Shown: positions 15,137 through 63,438 of the stretch, piece by piece
How positions within the stretch are numbered: position 1 is the first letter of the stretch
Layout of the letters: each line of letters opens with the position of its first letter
Source of the DNA: a virus
IMG/VR virus record: IMGVR_UViG_3300007352_000001
Span: 177,427 to 241,426 of that record
Strand: one strand, 5' to 3'
Length of the DNA stretch: 64,000 nt
Program-made: the position numbers and the translations under genes
The notes under the pieces: generated by a model
What the model saw: the letters and a program-made list of their open reading frames with translations, nothing else
What the model was told of the DNA's origin: nothing
Databases searched by the model: none

Positions 15137-15498
15137 GTGACGACGACGACTTCGCACAGCTCGTGCAGAAGACCTTGGCGCCGCTGGTACAGGTGAAGGA
15201 CTTCACCATCCAGAAGCGTCGCGTCCAGGTCGTGTTCGACTTCTTGAACATGAACTCGTTCGTCGAGAAGCAGCTCGACCAAGCGTTGCGGATCTGGCAG
15301 GCACGCTACCCGGGCGCTGGTCTGTCGATCATCCCCGAGAACGAGAACTACCGCGTCCGCTACCCGTTCCACCGTGAAGAGTTCGAGACCATGGGTAAGG
15401 CGATCCTAGTCTCGGGCCAGCACGCCAGACCAGCCCCTGGCAAGGTCACTATCAACGTTGGCGAGATTCGCCGCTTAACCGACAACGAGGAGGAGTGA
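15133..15498 (+). CDS. Hypothetical protein coupled to the tubulin-like gene
   Basis: 121 residues; the start overlaps the tubulin-like stop by 4 bases. After an acidic start (MSDDDDFAQLVQKTLAPL) it reads as a small alpha/beta domain and ends acidic. Position makes it a candidate adaptor or regulator of the GTPase filament, as TubR is for TubZ, but no helix-turn-helix is visible. Family unknown. Confidence 0.7.
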   Translation: MSDDDDFAQLVQKTLAPLVQVKDFTIQKRRVQVVFDFLNMNSFVEKQLDQALRIWQARYPGAGLSIIPENENYRVRYPFHREEFETMGKAILVSGQHARPAPGKVTINVGEIRRLTDNEEE

Positions 15499-15665
15499 TG
15501 TCGGACGACGATGAGTGGGAAGACGACGACTGGGAAGACGACGATGATGACGAGTTCCTGTGCGGTGGGTGCAAACAGGATCAGCCAGCCAGCTGCCGGT
15601 GCGACGAGTGCGATCTCTGCCCAGACTGTTGTGACTGCGACGACGAAGAAGATGAGGAGTGGTGA
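15498..15665 (+). CDS. Very acidic cysteine-rich protein, 55 aa
   Basis: Starts at the TGATG overlap with the previous gene, preceded by GAGGAGGAG. About 40 percent of residues are Asp or Glu, surrounding a cysteine cluster (CGGC, CRCDEC, CPDCCDC) with nine Cys, enough for two metal ions. The charge suggests a DNA mimic or metal-binding peptide; that is inference. Confidence 0.65.
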   Translation: MSDDDEWEDDDWEDDDDDEFLCGGCKQDQPASCRCDECDLCPDCCDCDDEEDEEW

Positions 15666-15713
15666 ATAGCACGAGGCCGTGCTATGCCGCGCAACGGGTG
15701 AGGAGAGCGGACA

Positions 15714-15959
15714 GTGGTGAGGTGGTGGCGGCGAACACGGAACCGGCTCGGGCGCATCGCGCGCACGGCCGTCGAATCCCTCGTGGTCGTTTCGTCGATC
15801 GCGTTGCGCGCCTGGTTGTCGCGGCAGTGGCGCGACGCGATCGCCTACCACATCATCGTCGCCCTTGGGTATCGCGTACCGGTGTGGAACGGTGACGTCC
15901 ACGAGGAACGTGACAGTGAGCGAAGCATCCGCATCACCACAATCGAACTTCGGGACTGA
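15714..15959 (+). CDS. Small basic hypothetical protein with hydrophobic segment
   Basis: 81 residues: basic N-terminus (MVRWWRRTRNRLGRIAR), a hydrophobic stretch (ESLVVVSSIALRAWL) and a polar tail. It may lie along or in the membrane. GTG start (15714 or 15717) follows GAGGAG. The function is unknown. Confidence 0.5.
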   Translation: MVRWWRRTRNRLGRIARTAVESLVVVSSIALRAWLSRQWRDAIAYHIIVALGYRVPVWNGDVHEERDSERSIRITTIELRD

Positions 15960-15972
15960 GGGGAGTTGGGGG

Positions 15973-16710
15973 ATGGTAGAAGGGCAAGAGGTCGAGATCT
16001 ACCGGTCTATGTTGCAGCCGTTCGCGCTGCAGAAGTGCAGCGTGCAGAACCTGTACTTGGCGCCGGGTAACTCTACGCAAGGGCTCGACCGATCACTGCT
16101 CGGTGCGCTCTTCGACCGCCGCGTCCCGTTCTGGACCAACGTCAAGCGTCGTGGCCGTGACCTGTTGCTGGAGTTCGAGCGCATCTCCCTGCTCATCCGC
16201 GGCGGTTTCACTGTGCATGTGAACGAGCCCGCGTCGAAGGACGATGTGGTGCGGCTCTACTTGGGGCACACCGCGGACACCAGCCGTCCACCGCAGGCGC
16301 GAGCGCAGCGCATTGCCGTGCGCCCAAACGGCAAGATGCGGGTGACGTTGCTCTCGCCGGAAATGTACGCCGCGATCTATCGACGCTTCGGGAGTGACGT
16401 GCTCTCGCAGGCGGTCGACGTGCCCCAGCTCTACGACGACAGCCGTGAACTGGGGAAGCCGATCGGGGCGTACCTGCTCGATCAGAACAACGTCGCCGGG
16501 ATCGGCCCGCGGACCGCGGTAGAAGCGATCGTGGTGATGGCGCAGTGCGACTTGTCCACGCCTGTGCGGGAGCTGACACCAGAACAGTTTGGGACGTGCG
16601 TGTTCGGCGCACAGCTTGTGGCGATCACCGCGCTCGTCCAGCAGGTACGGAAGGGAGAGGCATACCCCTACCGCTTGCCAGCGGAGACCGAGACAGCAGA
16701 CCGGCAATGA
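15973..16710 (+). CDS. Divergent Fpg/Nei-like DNA glycosylase
   Basis: 245 residues. MVEGQEVEIYRSML aligns with the MPELPEVE or MPEGPE start of Fpg/Nei enzymes, KRRGRDLLLEF with the RRxKYLLLEL strand, IYRRFGSDVL with the RRFG region, and AYLLDQNNVAGIG with the helix-two-turn-helix LLDQxxxAGIGN. Fpg/Nei remove oxidised bases using an N-terminal Pro; here residue 2 is Val, as in NEIL3. The usual catalytic Lys is Arg, the Asn after GIG is Pro, and no C-terminal zinc finger is present. It may be an altered-specificity or inactive DNA-binding member. The ATG at 15973 follows GGGGAG. Confidence 0.65.
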   Translation: MVEGQEVEIYRSMLQPFALQKCSVQNLYLAPGNSTQGLDRSLLGALFDRRVPFWTNVKRRGRDLLLEFERISLLIRGGFTVHVNEPASKDDVVRLYLGHTADTSRPPQARAQRIAVRPNGKMRVTLLSPEMYAAIYRRFGSDVLSQAVDVPQLYDDSRELGKPIGAYLLDQNNVAGIGPRTAVEAIVVMAQCDLSTPVRELTPEQFGTCVFGAQLVAITALVQQVRKGEAYPYRLPAETETADRQ

Positions 16711-42063: not shown

Positions 42064-42442
42064 GGCCCCTCCCACGTCCTAGACTGGGACGTCCTAGTAG
42101 CTGGCTAGTAGGTGCGGCTGGGCACATACCGGGGGCAGGGTGGCGTGCGCGACAGCGCCGCCGCCCGTCAGCTGACTGCTGTGCGTGACTCACCACACCC
42201 ACCCGCATTGACCCACCCATGCCGTTGATTTGGAGCGCACGCTCTTAGCGCGCTTCTTACTCGCTCGTCAAGCTCAACGTCCAAACAGCCGGGCTAGGTA
42301 GTCCGTACCTAGCCACCAACAAAGGTCGACCACGGGTCGACAAAACGGCCGGTACGCCGTGGTTCACCCCTGTATCGCAGGGAAACCCACTTCGGGAGAG
42401 GTGTCTCCAGCCTCTCCCGCAGCCGTTTTGGAGGGCCACACC
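42064..42442. promoter_or_regulatory. Divergent control region between two gene runs
   Basis: No gene is supported in these 379 bases. Leftward: inverted repeat CGTCC/GGACG near 42076-42091, and a weak TTGACG-N17-CTAAGA promoter candidate at about 42243-42272 (minus). Rightward: hairpin GGCTAGGTA/TACCTAGCC (42292-42300 with 42306-42314) and the structured leader after it. No copy of the sigma-54-like element is present with an intact -24 part. Confidence 0.5.
42292..42442 (+). promoter_or_regulatory. Structured 5' leader with four-way-junction fold
   Basis: Closing stem: CAAAACGGC (42341-42349) pairs with GCCGTTTTG (42422-42430). Inside are CGG-UACG-CCG (42350-42359), GGTT...AACC around CCCTG/CAGGG (42361-42387), and CGGGAGAGG/CCTCTCCCG (42393-42401 with 42411-42419). 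The ribosome binding site GGAGGG (42430-42435) abuts the closing stem. Upstream are a 9-bp hairpin (42292-42314) and GTCGAC/GTCGAC (42325-42341). It may be a riboswitch, protein-binding leader or stability element; no known class is recognised. Confidence 0.55.
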
Positions 42443-42928
42443 ATGCGTCGAGTCGATCCGCTGGAAGTGGACGTGCTCCTCGACCTCGCCGCTGCTGCAG
42501 GTCCTGGTGCCGCCACCCAGCTCGCTTCAGGCCGTTCGCTGTTCGATGTCAGCGAACGCGCTCAGTTCCTCGTGTCCTCGCAGGCTCTGGCCGAGGCTCT
42601 CGCCGATGTGCAGCCGCTCGTCGACGCGATGCCGCGCCACAGTGAAGGCGATCTGGACACGGCCATCGACCTGCAGGATGCCGCCGCGCAGCTGGGCAAG
42701 GTCATCCCGCGGTTGCAGCTCGCGATCCGTGCCACCGAGAGCATGCAGGAGCGTGCGGCGATCGTCGCCGTCCTCGACGCCGCGCTCGACGCACACCGCC
42801 AGCTGAACGAGTGGTCGAGCCGTGCGGCCGAGTACAACCCGCCGCACGCCGCCGAGATCATCCAGAACTTCCACGGCCTGGTCATGATGGCGAAGGACCT
42901 GGCCCAGCTGGACCAGAACTACCGGTGA
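42443..42928 (+). CDS. Hypothetical helical protein downstream of structured leader
   Basis: 161 residues, MRRVDPLEVDVLLDLAAAAG start, helical, Ala/Leu-rich, without Cys or membrane span. GGAGGG precedes the ATG by 7 bases. It heads the plus-strand run that includes the secreted array. GTGA overlap with the first secreted paralogue. The function is unknown. Confidence 0.7.
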   Translation: MRRVDPLEVDVLLDLAAAAGPGAATQLASGRSLFDVSERAQFLVSSQALAEALADVQPLVDAMPRHSEGDLDTAIDLQDAAAQLGKVIPRLQLAIRATESMQERAAIVAVLDAALDAHRQLNEWSSRAAEYNPPHAAEIIQNFHGLVMMAKDLAQLDQNYR

Positions 42929-43515
42929 GCACCATCCGCGCCCTGGTGTGCGCCGCAGCCTTGCTGCTGAGCGCACCGGCCTGGGCAGGGGAAATCTACC
43001 TGCACGCCGCGGGCGCCCTCACCAAGGGCTCTGGTGGATGCACACGGGTGCAGAACGACGGCACCGCCGGCCCGATCGTCTCGATGCAGTGCTCGCAGAC
43101 GGGCACGCAGGAGCTGTTCTGGTGGGTGCCGATCCCGTCGGACTTCGGCAGTACGATCACGCCGACGATCACCTACCACACCGGCTCGGTGTCGGCTGGC
43201 AACCTGTGCTTCCGGATCCGGCTGACGGCGTTCGCCACCGACGGCTCGGCAGCCAACATGCTGACGGCCGCGGCAGCCACCAACACGGTGACGATCACCG
43301 ATGCCAACCTGACCGCGGTGGTGAACTCGCCGAACCAAGGGGCGGGTACCTCGCTGACGCCGCAACAGCGCACCAGCGCAGGGCTCACCAGCTGCGCGGT
43401 GCAGAGCTGCCAGAACCTCTACGGCCTGGTGCAGGTCGAGCGCATGAACGACGGCAGCTGCAGCTCGAACCTCGCGACCAATGCGCAGGTCGACATGCTG
43501 CGGCTTGCCTACTGA
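42925..43515 (+). CDS. Secreted paralogue 1 of 7 (most divergent)
   Basis: 196 residues. Signal peptide STIRALVCAAALLLSAPAWA (cleavage before GEIYLHA). Shares with the array the GxIYLxA start, the STCTK-like GGCTRVQND, paired Cys and an ending region with CSSN, but has MLRLAY instead of LEVxY at the end. Mature length about 175. It lies before the non-secreted 43531 gene. Family unknown; it is probably a periplasmic or surface protein. Confidence 0.7.
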   Translation: MSTIRALVCAAALLLSAPAWAGEIYLHAAGALTKGSGGCTRVQNDGTAGPIVSMQCSQTGTQELFWWVPIPSDFGSTITPTITYHTGSVSAGNLCFRIRLTAFATDGSAANMLTAAAATNTVTITDANLTAVVNSPNQGAGTSLTPQQRTSAGLTSCAVQSCQNLYGLVQVERMNDGSCSSNLATNAQVDMLRLAY

Positions 43516-43530
43516 CGAAAGGCGATGCGG

Positions 43531-44109
43531 ATGGATGCGGAGCGGTTGCTGCTGAAGGTCCGGAAGTTCGGTGACGTTCAGGCGGAACATGTGGCCTGGA
43601 CCGAGCCGTTGTCGTGGAACTCGGCGACTCCGGCCGGTGTTGGGTTCACCGAGCACAAGCTGTCGTTCATCGACGTGCTCAACCACGCCTTCCAGCTCTA
43701 CGCGCAGGGCGACGTGGTCCCCGACGTTGGGGATGAGCTGGTTGATGTCAGCCGCAAGGTCGCGAGCCGCGACCTCGTCTTCCTCGGCGAGCGCGCCACG
43801 TTCATCATCGAGACGCTGCCGGGGTTCATCATGCACCCGCCGCAGCAGCTCGGCAGTGCGACGCGCCTCGGCCGTCTGAACGGACACTGGACGGTGGTGC
43901 GGGAGTCCGCGTTGCCGCTGAACGAGTTCATCGTGGTGCACGTGCAGCCGCAGACGCGCACGGTGTTCGCCACGCCAGGCGTGGCCGGTAAGCAAGAAGA
44001 CATCGCGGAGTTTCTCCAGCGCCGCGCCGCCTCGCTGATCCAAGCGGTGGCCTCGACCAAGGCGCCGGCCAATCGACAGGTCAATCCCCACGCATCGTGC
44101 GCTGGGTGA
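43531..44109 (+). CDS. Hypothetical protein inside the secreted array, 192 aa
   Basis: No signal peptide. ATG 43531 has GAAAGG at good spacing; an ATG at 43525 is closer. Alpha/beta composition (DELVDVSRKVASRDLVFLGE, LNEFIVVHVQPQTRTVF). Its place between secreted paralogues 1 and 2 suggests a linked job such as a cytoplasmic partner or immunity-type protein; no sequence support. Confidence 0.65.
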   Translation: MDAERLLLKVRKFGDVQAEHVAWTEPLSWNSATPAGVGFTEHKLSFIDVLNHAFQLYAQGDVVPDVGDELVDVSRKVASRDLVFLGERATFIIETLPGFIMHPPQQLGSATRLGRLNGHWTVVRESALPLNEFIVVHVQPQTRTVFATPGVAGKQEDIAEFLQRRAASLIQAVASTKAPANRQVNPHASCAG

Positions 44110-44118
44110 CGAGGTCTC

Positions 44119-44706
44119 ATGGGCGGGTGGCGGTGGTGGAGTGGAGTGGTTGTGGCCGTGGCACTGGGTGCTGCGGCGCCCGCCCATGCAGGCAAACTCG
44201 AACTGTGGGCTGACTCGGCCTACACGCTCTCGGGCTCGGGCTGCACGAAGGTCGTGAACAACGCCGCCTCGAACGAGGCGTACACGACCATCAACTGCCC
44301 GGATGCCGCGGGCGGGACCTTCGTGGTTCCGTTCGCGATCCCGGAAGTGGCCGCGGCCACGGGCTGGACCTACCGCATCCACTACGCGGTCTCGAACAAC
44401 TCGACCTCGTCGACGTGCGCCTGGGACGTGCAGCTCCAAGCGCAGACGAGCGACGGGACAGTGGTGATCACTGGCGGGCCGACGACCACGGTCACCGCGG
44501 GGCCGCGCGATCACACCGCCGGCAAGATCGACCTCTCGCCGACCAGCGCGGCGATGACCGGCATTCGCGACAGCCAAGCCGGCGCGAACTGCTCGGGATC
44601 CACCTGCACGGACACCGGGGGCGTCGCACTCGTCACGCTGAACAACACCAGCACGAGCGGCATCACCGGCACCTGCAACTTTCGGCTGTTGGAGATCACG
44701 TACTGA
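44119..44706 (+). CDS. Secreted paralogue 2 of 7
   Basis: 195 residues. Signal peptide (MGGWRWWSGVVVAVALGAAA, cleavage AHA-GK). Array features: GKLELWAD, SGCTKVV, YTTINCPDA, ATGWTYRIHYAV, CAWDV, CSGSTCTDTGG, CNFRLLEITY. Four conserved Cys suggest two disulphides in an extracytoplasmic beta domain. The LLEI codons hold the GGAG used by the next gene. Confidence 0.75.
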   Translation: MGGWRWWSGVVVAVALGAAAPAHAGKLELWADSAYTLSGSGCTKVVNNAASNEAYTTINCPDAAGGTFVVPFAIPEVAAATGWTYRIHYAVSNNSTSSTCAWDVQLQAQTSDGTVVITGGPTTTVTAGPRDHTAGKIDLSPTSAAMTGIRDSQAGANCSGSTCTDTGGVALVTLNNTSTSGITGTCNFRLLEITY

Positions 44707-45290
44707 TGCGCTCACTGCTCACCACGCTGTGCTTCGCTGTGCTCGTGCTGGCTCAGCCGGCGTGGGCAGGACGGCTCTATCTCTTTGCCGAGAACGCCAT
44801 CCTGCCGTCGGGCTCGACGTGCACCAAGAACATCGAGATCCAGTCGGATCGCGCCTACACGACGATCAACTGCCCGCCGGGCGGCAACAACATCTTCGCG
44901 ATCCCGTTCCCGTTCCCAACCGATGCGCCGAGCACGGGATGGACGTTCCGCGTCCACTACCAGGTGAACCAGACCACCGCGTCGTCGCGCTGCGCGTGGG
45001 ACGTCACCATGAAGACGTTCCCCGACAACAGTGACGCCACGATCACCGGCGGCTCGGTCACCACGCTCCAGAGCACCTCGCAGACGCACACCGTCAACCG
45101 CCGGTACGTCTCCCCGGCGAGCGGCGCCATCAGCCAGATCCTCGGTCCGAGCGGCAGTCCCTGCACCGGCACGCCGTCGAACTGCGCGGATCTCAGCGCG
45201 GTGGCGAAGCTCGACATGAACGACGGATCGAGCACCAACATCAGCAACCCGAACAGCTGCAACTTCCGCATGCTGGAGGTTCGGTACTGA
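44706..45290 (+). CDS. Secreted paralogue 3 of 7
   Basis: 194 residues. Signal peptide MRSLLTTLCFAVLVLAQPAW (cleavage WAG-RLY or AWA-G). Same plan: GRLYLFAEN, STCTKNIE, YTTINCPPG, DAPSTGWTFRVHYQV, CAWDVTM, a C-rich segment GSPCTGTPSNCADLS, CNFRMLEVRY. TGATG overlap at both ends. Closest to paralogues 4 and 5 in the GWTxRVHY block. Confidence 0.75.
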   Translation: MRSLLTTLCFAVLVLAQPAWAGRLYLFAENAILPSGSTCTKNIEIQSDRAYTTINCPPGGNNIFAIPFPFPTDAPSTGWTFRVHYQVNQTTASSRCAWDVTMKTFPDNSDATITGGSVTTLQSTSQTHTVNRRYVSPASGAISQILGPSGSPCTGTPSNCADLSAVAKLDMNDGSSTNISNPNSCNFRMLEVRY

Positions 45291-45937
45291 TGCCGCGTTC
45301 GCTGTTTGCGAATAGCAAACGTGCCGGCGTCACGGGCCTTTTCTCCCTGTTGGGGTGTGCCCGTTTGCGGATTGCATACGCCGCGGCGCTGCTCGTGCTG
45401 GTCGCCACGCCGGCTCACGCCGGCCGCATCTACGTGTTCGCCGAGGCGTTCTACCTGACGACGACTTCGACGTGCACCAAGACGGTCAACTCGACCACGC
45501 AGAACTCGACGACGACGATCAACTGTCCGTCGAACGTGCTGACCACCGGCTTCCGCGCCAACGTGGCGTTCCCGCCCGATGCGCCGAACAGCTGGTCGTA
45601 CAGGGTCTGGTACACGACGCCGGACACGGCCTCGAACAAGTCGTGCAGCTGGCAGATCCAGGCGCGCTCGCGCCCCCACGACTCGCGCAACGACCTGGGC
45701 GGCGGTGAGGACACCGCTACCGTGATCGGTGGACCGATCCAACACGCCAACAACCGCCAGTACAAGACCGACATCTCGACGGCGACGGCCGTCTACAACA
45801 CGGCGACTTCGGCCAACTGTTCGAGCACGGCGTGCCAGGACACCGAGGTGCGCCTCAACATCGCGCTCATTCCGGTGCTCTTCAGTGCCGACTCCGCGAG
45901 CGAGTGCGACTTCCGATATCTGGAGATCGAGTACTGA
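45290..45937 (+). CDS. Secreted paralogue 4 of 7, extended N-terminus
   Basis: 215 residues. The signal peptide (LRIAYAAALLVLVATPAHAG) starts about 25 residues into the frame, after MPRSLFANSKRAGVTG. A TTG at 45365 (before RIAYAAALL) would restore the usual start, so initiation may differ. Array core GRIYVFAEA, STCTKTVN, TTINCPSN, CSSTACQDTE, CDFRYLEIEY. The 5' end has near-repeated TTTGCGAATAGCAAACG and TTTGCGGATTGCATACG. Confidence 0.7.
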   Translation: MPRSLFANSKRAGVTGLFSLLGCARLRIAYAAALLVLVATPAHAGRIYVFAEAFYLTTTSTCTKTVNSTTQNSTTTINCPSNVLTTGFRANVAFPPDAPNSWSYRVWYTTPDTASNKSCSWQIQARSRPHDSRNDLGGGEDTATVIGGPIQHANNRQYKTDISTATAVYNTATSANCSSTACQDTEVRLNIALIPVLFSADSASECDFRYLEIEY

Positions 45938-46521
45938 TGCGCACGCTACGGATTCTCTTCGTCGCGCTCGCTGTACTCCTCGTGGGCTCCAAGGCTCACG
46001 CCGGCCGCATCTACGGCTGGGCTGAGGCAGCGAAGCTCACCTCATCGTCCTCGGGTTGCACGCTCACCGACAACCAGGGTGTGCGCTCGGGCGGCAACTA
46101 CGCCTACCGCACGATGAACTGCACCGACGGTGCGAACCGCGAGTTCGTGCTGCCGTTGTGGATCCCGCCCGATGCGCCCAACACGGGCTGGACGGCGCGC
46201 GTGCATTACGAGACGACCGACACCAGCGCCAGCAAGGTCTGCGCGTGGAACGTGTCGATTGGCGCCTACAAGGACGGCGCCTCGCCGCTCGGCTCGCAAG
46301 GGTCGACCACGGCGATCGCTGGTAGCTCGCGCACGCACGTGGCTGGCACGCGCTACATCACCAGCCCGTCGGCGACCTTCTCGCTCTACGATGTGCTCGC
46401 GGCTGGCGCCTGCGCCTCGACCAACTGCCTGCAGAAGACGGCCAAGGCCTACGTCACGCTCGACAGCTCGGCCACCACCGCCACGGGGTGTGACTTCCGC
46501 ATGCTGGAGGTTCGGTACTGA
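45937..46521 (+). CDS. Secreted paralogue 5 of 7
   Basis: 194 residues. Signal peptide MRTLRILFVALAVLLVGSKA (cleavage AHA-GR). Core GRIYGWAEA, SGCTLTD, YRTMNCTDG, DAPNTGWTARVHYETTDTS, CAWNV, CASTNC, CDFRMLEVRY. TGATG at both ends, with GGAGG from LEVRY 10 bases before the next ATG. Confidence 0.75.
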   Translation: MRTLRILFVALAVLLVGSKAHAGRIYGWAEAAKLTSSSSGCTLTDNQGVRSGGNYAYRTMNCTDGANREFVLPLWIPPDAPNTGWTARVHYETTDTSASKVCAWNVSIGAYKDGASPLGSQGSTTAIAGSSRTHVAGTRYITSPSATFSLYDVLAAGACASTNCLQKTAKAYVTLDSSATTATGCDFRMLEVRY

Positions 46522-47126
46522 TGCGCACGCTGAAGCTCCTGGTCGTGCTCGCGCTGTGCCTCCTGCCAGCCACCGCGCACGCCGTCACCTACTTCGCCTT
46601 CGCCGAAGACGCCACCCTCGCCACGGCGACTGACATCTGCGCCATCACTGAGCACCAGGGCACGTCGAGCAACTACACTACGGTCGACTGCACGGGCTCG
46701 GGCGAGACGCGTGTCGCCATCCCGCTCTACCGCCCGGTGTACGACCCGAGCAGCTGGCCGAAGGCGGCGACGGTGAAGGTCCACTACGAGACGCCCGACA
46801 CCAGCTCGAACACGCACTGCGACTGGGACGTGGCGATCTACATCATCAACACGTACACCTCGTCGGGCACGGTGCAGCCGGCCCTGGTGAATGCGTCTTC
46901 GGTGTCGACGACGGCCGTCACGGGCACAACCCAGACGCACGCGGCGGACACGCGCTACATCACGCCCGCCACCTCGACGTTCAACTTGAAGGATCCAGCT
47001 GGCTCGGACTGCAGCAACGGCAATGCGGGCTGCGCCGATGGCGAGGCCGTGGTCATCATCGACTGGGACGACGCGTCGTCGACCGCGAGCGAGTGCCGGC
47101 TGCGGGCGGTGGAGGTGAACTACTGA
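46521..47126 (+). CDS. Secreted paralogue 6 of 7
   Basis: 201 residues. Signal peptide MRTLKLLVVLALCLLPATAH (cleavage AHA-VTY). Core VTYFAFAEDAT, TDICAITEH, YTTVDCTG, KVHYETPDTSSN, CDWDVAI, CSNGNAGCADGE, CRLRAVEVNY. The end EVNY replaces LEVRY but keeps GGAGG. Confidence 0.75.
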   Translation: MRTLKLLVVLALCLLPATAHAVTYFAFAEDATLATATDICAITEHQGTSSNYTTVDCTGSGETRVAIPLYRPVYDPSSWPKAATVKVHYETPDTSSNTHCDWDVAIYIINTYTSSGTVQPALVNASSVSTTAVTGTTQTHAADTRYITPATSTFNLKDPAGSDCSNGNAGCADGEAVVIIDWDDASSTASECRLRAVEVNY

Positions 47127-47800
47127 TGCGCTCGCACATCGCTGAGCTGCGGTTGTTCGTGAAGCAGCTGCATGAGCTGGGCCGTCTGCTCGGGATCCCG
47201 AAGCAGGCGATGCGCCAGTACATCGGCAGCCGCCTGTTCGTCGTGGCACTGGTCGCGCTCCTGGGTGGCTTCGGTGAAGCGCACGCTGGCATGATCCAGC
47301 TTGGCGCCGAGGCCGCACAGTTCGCGAGCCCCGCGCCTGCCACGTGCACCAAGGTCACGACCGCGGCAAGCAACTACACCGACACCTCGATTAACTGCAC
47401 GTCGTCTGGATCAGACGTGAAGTTCTACCTGCCGGTGGCGATCCCACCAGATTACACCGGCGGCTCGGGCATCTTCACCTCGGTGTACTACACGTCGCCT
47501 GACCCGTTCACGAACCGGCGGTGCTACTGGGCCTTGGCGCTCTCGGCCCTGCGCGACGGTGCCACCGCCGCCTCGCTCGATACCACGACGGTGTTCACGG
47601 CCGGCCCGCAGGTTCAGCACGTGGCGGGTCGACGGTACTGGGCGCAGAACAACGTGCTCCCGTACGACGTGCTAGCCGGCGCGAACTGCTCGGGCAGCAA
47701 CTGCTCGGATACTGAGGCCATTTTGGAGGTCACGTTGCGCGCCTCGCCGAACACCTCGGCGACGCAGTGCAACTTCGACTTCGTCACCCTTCGCTACTGA
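47126..47800 (+). CDS. Secreted paralogue 7 of 7, long N-terminus
   Basis: 224 residues from the ATG at the TGATG overlap. The signal peptide SRLFVVALVALLGGFGEAHA begins near residue 34; an ATG at 47210 (MRQYIGS) would give a normal start. Core MIQLGAEAA, ATCTKVTT, DTSINCTSS, VYYTSPDP, CYWALAL, CSGSNCSDTEA, CNFDFVTLRY. Last member; followed by a 16-base gap and the dockerin-like gene. Confidence 0.7.
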   Translation: MRSHIAELRLFVKQLHELGRLLGIPKQAMRQYIGSRLFVVALVALLGGFGEAHAGMIQLGAEAAQFASPAPATCTKVTTAASNYTDTSINCTSSGSDVKFYLPVAIPPDYTGGSGIFTSVYYTSPDPFTNRRCYWALALSALRDGATAASLDTTTVFTAGPQVQHVAGRRYWAQNNVLPYDVLAGANCSGSNCSDTEAILEVTLRASPNTSATQCNFDFVTLRY

Positions 47801-47816
47801 GAAAGGGACGTACGCC

Positions 47817-48266
47817 ATGTGGAAGGTTCTGGTGCAGGTTGTGGCTGGGGCAGCGATGCCCTTCATTTTGCTGGGGGCGACACTGGCGTATGTGCCGCCT
47901 CAGTACGTGATCGGCTCTGCCGCGCCACCGGAGTGCAAGGCGTGCAGCTGCCCCGGCGACCTGGACGGCAACGGTGCAGTGTCGGTAGGCGAGCTGATCG
48001 CGGCGGTGAACTCGCTGCTGCACGGTTGCCCAGCGCCGGCCCCGACGTTCACGCCGATCACCAAGCGCACCGCGGTCGTCTTCTGCCCAGGGGACTGCAA
48101 CGGAGATGGAGTGGTGACCATCGCAGAGAAGGACCAGGCGATCGCGATCATCAACGGGGCGCCCCTCTCGACGTGCATGGCCGCGGACGCCAACGGCGAC
48201 GGCCGTGTGCGCAGCAACGACATCACCATGATCATCCAGGCGATCAACGACGGCTGCCCGCAATGA
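47817..48266 (+). CDS. Secreted or anchored dockerin/EF-hand-like calcium-binding protein
   Basis: 149 residues. An N-terminal hydrophobic start (VLVQVVAGAAMPFILLGATL) can be a signal or anchor. Three calcium-loop motifs follow: CPGDLDGNGAVSVGELIAAV, CPGDCNGDGVVTIAEKDQAI and ADANGDGRVRSNDITMII, each DxNxDGxV then an acidic partner, as in dockerin I and related F-hands; each ends near a Cys. Dockerins bind cohesins, and loose relatives are abundant in some deltaproteobacterial lineages. It may display or tether the secreted array. GAAAGGGA precedes the ATG. Confidence 0.75.
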   Translation: MWKVLVQVVAGAAMPFILLGATLAYVPPQYVIGSAAPPECKACSCPGDLDGNGAVSVGELIAAVNSLLHGCPAPAPTFTPITKRTAVVFCPGDCNGDGVVTIAEKDQAIAIINGAPLSTCMAADANGDGRVRSNDITMIIQAINDGCPQ

Positions 48267-48700
48267 GCACATTGTCGGCTGAGTTCCGCATGTTCCCGCC
48301 GACCTACGCGGACATGTACGGGTTCCCGCGGCAGCCGCCCAGCTCGGGCTGGCAGCAGTGGCAGCAGCAACAATGGGTCGACGACCGCACCTCGGTGCAG
48401 CCGCCGTACGTGCCGTCGTACGGGGAACCCATCTGGATCGTGCAGCCGTCGGTCACGGTGCCGATGGTGCCGTACCCGCATCCGCAGAAGCTGCCGACGG
48501 TGCCGTCACCAACGCCGTTCCAGCCACAGCGGACCTACACCGTCGAGGAGCTGGAACTGATGCTGGCTGCGGCGCAGCAGCACGCTCTGCACGACGGCGC
48601 CCCGAGCGATCACGTCCCCACGCCTTTCGAGCACTTGCAGAAGGGGCAGATCGGCTACGCCTCGCGTCGCGACGTCGTCGAGCGCGACGGCGCACCGTGA
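48263..48700 (+). CDS. Pro/Gln-rich hypothetical protein with GYASR motif, 145 aa
   Basis: Pro, Gln, Tyr and Trp-rich N-terminal half (GWQQWQQQQWVDDRTS), helical segment VEELELMLAAAQQHAL, then FEHLQKGQIGYASRRDVVE. That last motif recurs in the next two genes. ATGA overlap with the previous stop. Function unknown. Confidence 0.65.
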   Translation: MSTLSAEFRMFPPTYADMYGFPRQPPSSGWQQWQQQQWVDDRTSVQPPYVPSYGEPIWIVQPSVTVPMVPYPHPQKLPTVPSPTPFQPQRTYTVEELELMLAAAQQHALHDGAPSDHVPTPFEHLQKGQIGYASRRDVVERDGAP

Positions 48701-61665: not shown

Positions 61666-61853
61666 GCTGCTACCGCCACCGGGTCCTGCCCACAGGCGGG
61701 GAGATGCGCGGGATCGGCGACCCGGACGCGCAGCGGTACACACGCCGTCGCCGGCAGCTGTTTCTCCGTCGCTTTATCGACTGGGATCCTGTACATCCGA
61801 AGAAGCGCCAGGACCGGTCCTGGAAGCGCTTCCGAGCGACGAGGTATCGCTGA
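61662..61853 (+). CDS. Small basic hypothetical protein, 63 aa
   Basis: Arg-rich (RRRRQLFLRRFIDWDPVHPK), probably nucleic-acid binding. Overlaps the neighbours at both ends (ATGA, TGATG). Confidence 0.6.
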   Translation: MSCYRHRVLPTGGEMRGIGDPDAQRYTRRRRQLFLRRFIDWDPVHPKKRQDRSWKRFRATRYR

Positions 61854-62317
61854 TGGCGTGCTCTTGGTGTCCGAATCCGATGGCTCAGACGACCCCGCTG
61901 ATTGTCACCGATCGCGGCGCTGAGGCCTCTGGTCGGAAGACCGGTGACACGGTCAATCTCTGCCCTGCGTGCGCGACGAGCGCATTGCGCCGTCGGCACG
62001 CGAAGGCGGCAACCAAGCCGCGGGAACAGATCGAGGCAGTCGCCCGCGGCATGCGGCCGGCTGACGTCCTCGCCGAGAATGATCCGAACGACGACTTTGT
62101 CGCGGACACCGACGGCTCGCCGCTGCGGATCCCACCCAAGGGTCATCCCGATCGGTGCCCGGACTGCGGTGGCAGCCGTGCGCTGCGCGTCGGGTACACG
62201 TGGTGCGGGGCGATCCCGAACACGCCGTGCAACATCCCCGGCGGCGGGGAGCCGCACCAAGACGATCTGATCAACGCGAAGATCAAAGCCCATCCGTACC
62301 GCTACCGGCGCCGCTGA
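61853..62317 (+). CDS. Zinc-finger hypothetical protein, 154 aa
   Basis: MACSWCPNPMAQT with VNLCPACATSALR, then DRCPDCGGSRALRVGYTWCG: three CxxC pairs and extra Cys, two probable zinc sites. Basic C-terminus. TGATG overlap with the next gene. Confidence 0.65.
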   Translation: MACSWCPNPMAQTTPLIVTDRGAEASGRKTGDTVNLCPACATSALRRRHAKAATKPREQIEAVARGMRPADVLAENDPNDDFVADTDGSPLRIPPKGHPDRCPDCGGSRALRVGYTWCGAIPNTPCNIPGGGEPHQDDLINAKIKAHPYRYRRR

Positions 62318-63438
62318 TGGCTGAGTGGCACAAGCGCGGCTGGCTCGCTCCGTCGGGCACGCTGCACTCGATCGCAGCCGAAGGGACGCACACCGACTGG
62401 TTGCTCGCGCACCCGGAACACTGGGAGCCGGGCAAGCACCAGGAGGCGGTCGACCGCATCAACAAGGGCGAAGGCAAGCACTACGCGGTCCGCGACGCCA
62501 ATGCCCGCCTGCTGCGCCACGGGTGGGTGCGCCAGGCGGGCCGCGGCATGTACGAGCTGAGCGACCGTCGCCATCTGCGCCGCGTCCTCGACCACGTCAT
62601 GACGAACTACCCCGACATTGACCGGGTCACCGTCGACATCGGGGTGGACAAGCCGACCACGCACACGATCTCGGTGCACGAGGAGACGATTCCACTGGGG
62701 CAGTGCTACTCGTGGGCGACCAAGAATGCGCGCGAGGGAGACACCGTCGTGCACGGCACGGTGCAGCATCCATGGGACGGGCACAGCTTCTCGCACGCTT
62801 GGATCGAGCGAGGCGATCGCGTGCACGACTTTCAGACCTCGATCGGCCTCGGACCGGGCAAGCAGGGTTGGACGCGAGCAGCCTTCCAGGACGCCTACAC
62901 GCCGTCCCAGACGCGTCGTTATGCGCCGCACGAGGCCAAGGCCCACATGCTGCGCCATGGTCACCACGGGCCATGGGAGTGGGTGGAACGCGTGCTTGCT
63001 GGGGAGCGGCCTGCAGATGTCATCAACGAGGCCGTAGGCTTGGTGCGCAAAAGCACTCAAGACTTCCTCTTGAACGATCCTGATGGCGGCGAGACCGACG
63101 CCGAGATGTATAACTTCGGGCGTGGGCGGGAACGCTACCGGCCTCGTCACGGCAAGGTGCACGAGTTCGACATTGTCCATCGCCAGCATGGGCGGGTCGG
63201 TACGATGCACGTGGCGCACACCGATCGAACGCAGCGGACGCTCTACGTACCGTGGATCGAGATTGAGCCCGCTCATGAGCGGGCTGTGAACCCGATGAGT
63301 CTGCGCACGTCGCTGCAGGCGCACTTTCCTCGTGCGCGTGAAGTGCGCGGCTGGCGCATCACTGGCCGCAGGCCAGGCGTCCGTTCGTACACGCTGCCGC
63401 CGCCTCGCAGCAACCCGCGACAAGGAAAGCTGTTCTGA
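62317..63438 (+). CDS. Transglutaminase/papain-like fold protein (putative), 373 aa
   Basis: N-terminal helical part with AEWHKRGWLAPSGTLHSIA (a typical phage virion-type start), then a Cys-His-Asp order: IPLGQCYSWATKNAREGD (Cys about residue 130), HSFSHAWIERGDRVHDFQ (His about 159, Asp about 168). C-terminal half basic with WRITGRRPGVRSYTL. Activity is unproven. The 4891-5520 protein has the same triad order; the two may be related. ATGA/TGATG couplings. Confidence 0.55.
   Translation: MAEWHKRGWLAPSGTLHSIAAEGTHTDWLLAHPEHWEPGKHQEAVDRINKGEGKHYAVRDANARLLRHGWVRQAGRGMYELSDRRHLRRVLDHVMTNYPDIDRVTVDIGVDKPTTHTISVHEETIPLGQCYSWATKNAREGDTVVHGTVQHPWDGHSFSHAWIERGDRVHDFQTSIGLGPGKQGWTRAAFQDAYTPSQTRRYAPHEAKAHMLRHGHHGPWEWVERVLAGERPADVINEAVGLVRKSTQDFLLNDPDGGETDAEMYNFGRGRERYRPRHGKVHEFDIVHRQHGRVGTMHVAHTDRTQRTLYVPWIEIEPAHERAVNPMSLRTSLQAHFPRAREVRGWRITGRRPGVRSYTLPPPRSNPRQGKLF

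Follow-up and report, generated by a model that had tools for sequence, protein, structure and literature searches.

Several phage-encoded envelope proteins bring about superinfection exclusion, among them Llp of T5, Cor of phi80 and N15, and Imm and Sp of T4, which alter receptor availability or DNA entry. That phages encode exported proteins is also already published as a general idea: huge phages carry proteins whose predicted location is the bacterial membrane or surface and which possibly alter susceptibility to other phages (PMC7162821), and P. gingivalis phages code for proteins exported by Sec, for which a capacity to modify the outer membrane has been proposed (PMC10367356). Here we describe an array of seven paralogous genes, predicted to encode exported, disulphide-bonded proteins with a lectin-like fold, in a 64,000-base stretch (the window) that forms the right end (177427-241426) of the 241,426-base virus record IMGVR_UViG_3300007352_000001 (G000). 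Positions in and around the array are those of the window; kilobase positions are those of the record.

The seven paralogues occupy 42925-47800 on the + strand, where the initial annotation had placed them and where both the open reading frames and leave-one-out homology confirm them. Copies 2-7 are contiguous (44119-47800) and coupled to one another by TGATG overlaps, a claim that we verified at five junctions between 44706 and 47126, and copy 1 stands apart. The structured leader reported upstream is borne out by a fold z-score of -3.46 against shuffled sequences, and the dockerin-like protein reported downstream by a match to PF00404. Of the sequence blocks quoted as common to all seven proteins, copy 1 is without most.

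Eleven copies of the family are encoded in the whole G000 genome, four of them outside the array at 25.7, 26.3, 73.0 and 151.1 kb. Leave-one-out profiles, from which the tested copy was excluded and which were run against the phage proteome, recovered 11/11 copies with E values from 3e-11 to 2.5e-43, the best non-family protein across the runs reaching E 7.5e-4; the family is therefore not an artefact of composition. A tree resolves two well-supported subfamilies (100/99). Subfamily A comprises copies 2-7 and the 151 kb copy, subfamily B comprises copy 1 and the 25, 26 and 73 kb copies, and the array is thus composed as 1+6.

Export was examined with a simple Sec rule, which 6/7 array N-termini pass, compared with 30/324 G000 proteins (9%). 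The seventh fails solely on the spacing between h-region and cleavage site, and reads ...LFVVALVALLGGFGEAHA directly before the cut and a G. Because the rule is crude, passing 34% of shuffled N-termini of the same composition, it is the comparison with the proteome that carries weight. A-X-A ends are present in 7/7 proteins, six by rule and one by eye. Paralogues 4 (45290-45421) and 7 (47126-47287) have unusually long n-regions, with 28-35 residues ahead of the hydrophobic stretch.

More telling than the Sec rule is the number of cysteines, which is even in all eleven mature copies and which, as a disulphide signature, fits oxidised, exported domains. Nine full-length copies contain six, including each of the seven mature array proteins, exactly as the paired cysteines of the initial annotation would have it. 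The 73 kb copy has ten and carries an extra Cys-bearing insert. The 151 kb copy has four, having lost exactly the segment carrying Cys 4 and 5, and possesses a membrane-anchor-like N-terminus in place of a plain signal peptide. Across the mature array proteins five Cys columns are invariant and the sixth is kept in six; in subfamily B the sixth Cys is shifted by a few residues and the count is still even. The signal peptides and the always-even cysteines together support the secretion proposed earlier; actual export, disulphide pairing and the class of ligand are our inference.

The crudeness of the rule leaves room for a reading in which these are phage fibre-type domains of an ordinary sort, with hydrophobic N-termini that do not function in export, so that the proteins would remain cytoplasmic, and their fold does resemble that of phage proteins. 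We regard this as quite improbable: A-X-A ends occur beside even cysteines in every copy of the array, the neighbouring dockerin protein also bears a signal peptide, and the nearest relative found, IMGVR_UViG_3300000311_000002 (G001), repeats the export pattern in unrelated sequences.

An AlphaFold2 model derived from the seven mature sequences is a confident all-beta sandwich, a jelly roll (pLDDT 84.7, pTM 0.84), and together with the even Cys counts the model favours the disulphide-bearing beta-sandwich that had been anticipated. Compared with predicted viral structures in BFVD, its best matches are phage proteins (TM 0.74-0.76, E 2e-8), mostly unnamed or uncharacterised, with tail-fibre and spike proteins lower in the match list. 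Tail-fibre/spike-like jelly-roll domains (BFVD A0A6J5RYK1, F8TV94 and F5B3P6) share the fold, with TM up to 0.76, at ~11-14% identity; the array family for its part carries a predicted Sec signal and three Cys pairs of the disulphide type. In the PDB the model resembles lectin, carbohydrate-binding-module (CBM) and Eph-receptor ligand-binding jelly rolls at TM of about 0.4-0.5. With PP2 phloem lectin 7yaq, CBM6 2cdp and CBM35 2w1w, which fall in that range, it shares the overall jelly-roll architecture alone and no sequence relation.

Sequence searches returned no relatives. No significant match to the array proteins was obtained by tblastn against 50,697 phages or in PDB sequences, and no family at E below 0.05 in Pfam or PHROGs. 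A tblastn search of P3 against 72,556 plasmids found nothing significant, nor did peptide and DNA pattern searches in viral contigs. As these searches are empty while jelly-roll matches exist, the family is new in sequence and common in fold.

The initial annotation ascribed the retention of seven copies to selection for dosage or for variant binding, and the two halves of that proposal fare differently. Identity is 25-41% among copies 2-7 and 15-22% between copy 1 and the others, a divergence that fits different ligands and does not fit dosage; the lectin-like fold likewise agrees with variant binding. That seven copies were retained to raise the yield of a single product, which the tandem, translationally coupled layout would suit, is highly improbable given identities of 15-41% and two subfamilies. 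By their sequences the array copies are old, diverged duplicates and not dosage copies. Variation does not differ between predicted strands and loops (p = 0.39), and there is thus no sign of loop-focused diversification.

Our leading reading, to which we commit ourselves tentatively, is that the array provides a diversified set of exported lectin-like proteins whose site of action is the host envelope, for superinfection exclusion, receptor masking or surface modification. The proteins would be synthesised by translational coupling, exported from the host cytoplasm by Sec with cleavage between A-X-A and G, and oxidised to three disulphides per typical copy. They would then be retained in the periplasm or on the outside of the infected cell, where binding to glycans or envelope structures may alter the surface, so that receptors would be blocked or masked against superinfecting phages, or the surface reshaped to the phage's benefit. 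Of the purposes that may be inferred, superinfection exclusion or receptor masking is the most plausible, and this purpose is the least certain part of the proposal. The array would be one part of a larger exported repertoire that includes dockerin, LamG and beta-propeller proteins.

This repertoire is most conspicuous in the baseplate module of G000. Between the baseplate hub (ending at 71578) and the VgrG-like spike (starting at 85210) lies a 13.6 kb cassette of mostly exported genes (71.6-85.2 kb; L010, L015, L016), among them the 73.0 kb family copy. The cassette also encodes a multi-dockerin protein whose match to DUF7483 falls below threshold, beta-sandwich proteins in which the linkers are rich in Thr and Pro, and a LamG protein of 1657 aa. 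G001 has 12.1 kb of mostly exported genes at the same place (66.2-78.3 kb of its own record; L033), and it is these whose export pattern is that of G000 in unrelated sequences; a structure model of one G001 cassette protein was discarded (pLDDT 46). In three other relatives the hub and spike genes are adjacent (G003 and Listeria phage LIS04) or about 0.2 kb apart (G005). An exported PQQ-type beta-propeller is conserved in both phages (L009 9301-11037; L030 5056-6744), the G001 protein being a homologue of the one at 27.3 kb, with 30% identity over 513 residues (E 1e-51), and G001 also encodes exported LamG proteins and an exported dockerin protein (PF00404).

The capsid proteins of the two phages are 67% identical. 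As G001 keeps exported LamG proteins, a dockerin protein and a beta-propeller homologue despite a GC content of 37% against 65% in G000, the export programme looks ancestral to their lineage, and export appears, on the strength of two genomes, to be a habit of that lineage. Genes outside the window were predicted with a home-made gene caller.

Some of these observations weigh against an action on the host envelope. Neither PADLOC (defence families; one match, at E 0.038) nor PHROGs gave a significant match, and membership in a known superinfection-exclusion or defence family was accordingly rejected; the array family was not found in G001's 82 kb; and the 73.0 kb copy within the baseplate cassette, like the phage proteins that are the family's nearest folds, makes a role in the virion conceivable. 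The array proteins could instead be tail-fibre or decoration-type proteins that are exported, fold with disulphides in the periplasm and join virions during or after lysis as adhesive variants. The initial annotation had set a known virion family against its own proposal, and this is half of what emerged: the closest folds belong to phage proteins whose role is unassigned and a single copy is located in the baseplate module, and PHROG, Pfam and phage tblastn yield no membership in such a family at the level of sequence.

We retain virion dressing as the chief rival for the reason that the closest folds are Caudovirales proteins and one copy lies in the baseplate module. The several exported beta-sandwich and LamG genes between hub and spike in both phages also speak for it, as does a truncated capsid-protein paralogue inside the array. 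The product of this gene (43525-44109) matches residues ~312-409 of the major capsid protein of G000 itself (BLASTP E 2e-12; hhalign probability 98%; own-record hmmsearch E 1.4e-11). Yet parts of tailed-phage virions are normally assembled in the cytoplasm, from which a Sec signal would withdraw them, and no precedent was found for extracytoplasmic tail assembly. G000 moreover encodes a large, conventional DUF4815 tail protein (91997-97894) without a signal peptide.

The array is far from the structural genes, and the link of its family to other cassette proteins is marginal. Hmmsearch relates the family to cassette proteins 79704 and 72286 at E of about 1e-3 to 0.1, and since the hhalign E of 0.01 is near that of a random control (0.028), we hold this homology to be unproven and suggestive only. 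Because the array has a leader to itself and is placed outside the structural block, the balance shifts slightly toward the host-envelope reading, and we judge dressing of the virion to be possible but distinctly less probable.

The same lectin- and CBM-like fold, the exported LamG and dockerin modules and the Thr/Pro-rich linkers of cassette proteins are compatible with an extracellular matrix or adhesion set, released at lysis to bind debris, polysaccharide or neighbouring cells and so keep virions or infected cells near hosts. With no cohesin (PF00963) partner found in G000 or G001, we consider this improbable. No dockerin resembling the one beside the array was found in 50,697 phage records or in plasmids.

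A broader proposal joins the cassette to the array: this lineage would use the host Sec system to export disulphide-bonded adhesive proteins of the tail-module type, which would coat its virions (or the surface of the host) once outside the cytoplasm, the exported cassette being inserted between hub and spike and the lectin-like family of eleven copies extending the repertoire. We advance this as a rather unlikely account.

The coordinates of the array and its immediate neighbours are collected in Table 1. The motif repeated at its junctions contains a Shine-Dalgarno-like GGAG(G) within the conserved C-terminal (L/V)E codons, at a spacing that suits the next ATG. Paralogue 7 is not overlapped by a following gene, and it alone in subfamily A lacks the C-terminal glutamate (VTLRY). 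As the (L/V)E codons write the Shine-Dalgarno sequence and are incomplete in paralogue 7, selection on a ribosome-binding site may account for some of the C-terminal 'conservation'. The first gene of the operon has no match in PHROG, Pfam or PADLOC and is left without a function by these. Just past the dockerin gene, the motif HLQxGQxGYASR is found at 48635, 48778 and 48989 in neighbouring + frames; these three are its only sites among the + frames of the whole record.

Table 1. Features of the array and its surroundings in the window (aa, amino acids; nt, nucleotides).
Feature	Position	Strand	Description
Structured leader	42300..42442	+	143 bases; several hairpins, strongest ending CAGCCGTTTT; precedes the operon's first gene
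Operon gene 1	42443..42928	+	161 aa; no signal peptide; stop overlaps GTG start of paralogue 1
Paralogue 1	42925..43515	+	Subfamily B; 196 aa; GTG start; predicted signal peptide MSTIRALVCAAALLLSAPAWA; 6 Cys in mature part
Truncated major-capsid-protein paralogue	43525..44109	+	No signal peptide; between paralogues 1 and 2
Paralogue 2	44119..44706	+	Subfamily A; 195 aa; predicted signal peptide; 6 Cys
Paralogue 3	44706..45290	+	Subfamily A; 194 aa; predicted signal peptide; 6 mature Cys; TGATG overlap with paralogue 2
Paralogue 4	45290..45937	+	Subfamily A; 215 aa; predicted signal peptide with long n-region; 6 mature Cys; TGATG overlap
Paralogue 5	45937..46521	+	Subfamily A; 194 aa; predicted signal peptide; 6 Cys; mature part modelled as jelly roll; TGATG overlap
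Paralogue 6	46521..47126	+	Subfamily A; 201 aa; predicted signal peptide; 6 mature Cys; TGATG overlap
Paralogue 7	47126..47800	+	Subfamily A; 224 aa; signal peptide by eye, long n-region; 6 Cys; TGATG overlap; ends coupled run
Exported dockerin-type protein	47817..48266	+	149 aa; EF-hand/dockerin repeats; predicted signal peptide; Pfam PF00404, E 2.4e-9
Junction motif [CTG]TGGAG....TACTGATG	44674-44716, 45258-45300, 45905-45947, 46489-46531, 47094-47136	+	43 nt; five TGATG junctions

Judged by its genes, G000 is a large, contractile-tailed phage that infects bacteria. It encodes a major head protein (phrog_138, E 5e-55), portal (phrog_213), head protease (phrog_207) and tail sheath (phrog_23), in addition to a Phage_base_V spike and the DUF4815 protein, and its tail genes follow the order of those of LIS04. 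Five tRNAs are present, and there are no other Rfam matches.

Between the tail sheath and tube genes lies a reversed gene (61742-63313 of the record, - strand; L015 4742-6313) for a PMT_2-like integral-membrane glycosyltransferase that scores just under the Pfam cut-off, adjoining a small exported protein. It is speculative that this predicted enzyme glycosylates the exported Thr/Pro-rich proteins. The matches of this gene in Chloroflexi metagenome-assembled genomes are just 34-36% identical, too distant for a host to be named; a dockerin scan of genome contigs for host assignment gave no match. Elsewhere, a single glycosyltransferase protein combines GT1/GT4-type and GT9-type domains (L017 3213-5453), and a nicotinamide phosphoribosyltransferase (NAMPT) gene (L020 13749-15137) is accompanied by a Nudix-domain gene that starts like NMN adenylyltransferase (15412-16344). 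The latter two form an NAD salvage pair with a possible part in counter-defence.

The initial annotation knew of no described phage system with the layout of the array, and we found none in the literature. The array proteins are likened to T5 Llp, phi80/N15 Cor and T4 Imm/Sp by description only, as phage-encoded proteins that would act in the envelope; those are single small lipoproteins or membrane proteins, unlike the array. With the cellulosome-type dockerin-cohesin system, G000 and G001 share the dockerin (PF00404), whereas the cohesin partner was not found in the phages. The large phages of Al-Shayeb et al. 2020 (PMC7162821) resemble G000 in encoding proteins predicted for the membrane or surface; theirs is a general statement over many proteins, to which G000 adds a coupled, even-Cys jelly-roll array and a conserved exported cassette in the baseplate module. 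The likeness to the P. gingivalis phages (PMC10367356) resides in several functionally unassigned genes whose signal peptides are adapted to the host; these are prophages of Bacteroidota, and in the portion of that report considered here neither a paralogue array nor a fold or disulphide pattern is described.

Exported phage proteins are usually reported singly, whereas here a whole repertoire is recognisable: beside the diverged lectin-like array it comprises a beta-propeller, LamG proteins and dockerins. A large part of this repertoire lies inside the baseplate gene module and is kept in two phages that differ as widely in GC content as G000 and G001. If confirmed, it would reveal either a programme for remodelling the surface of infected cells or a new extracytoplasmic step in the building of tailed phages.

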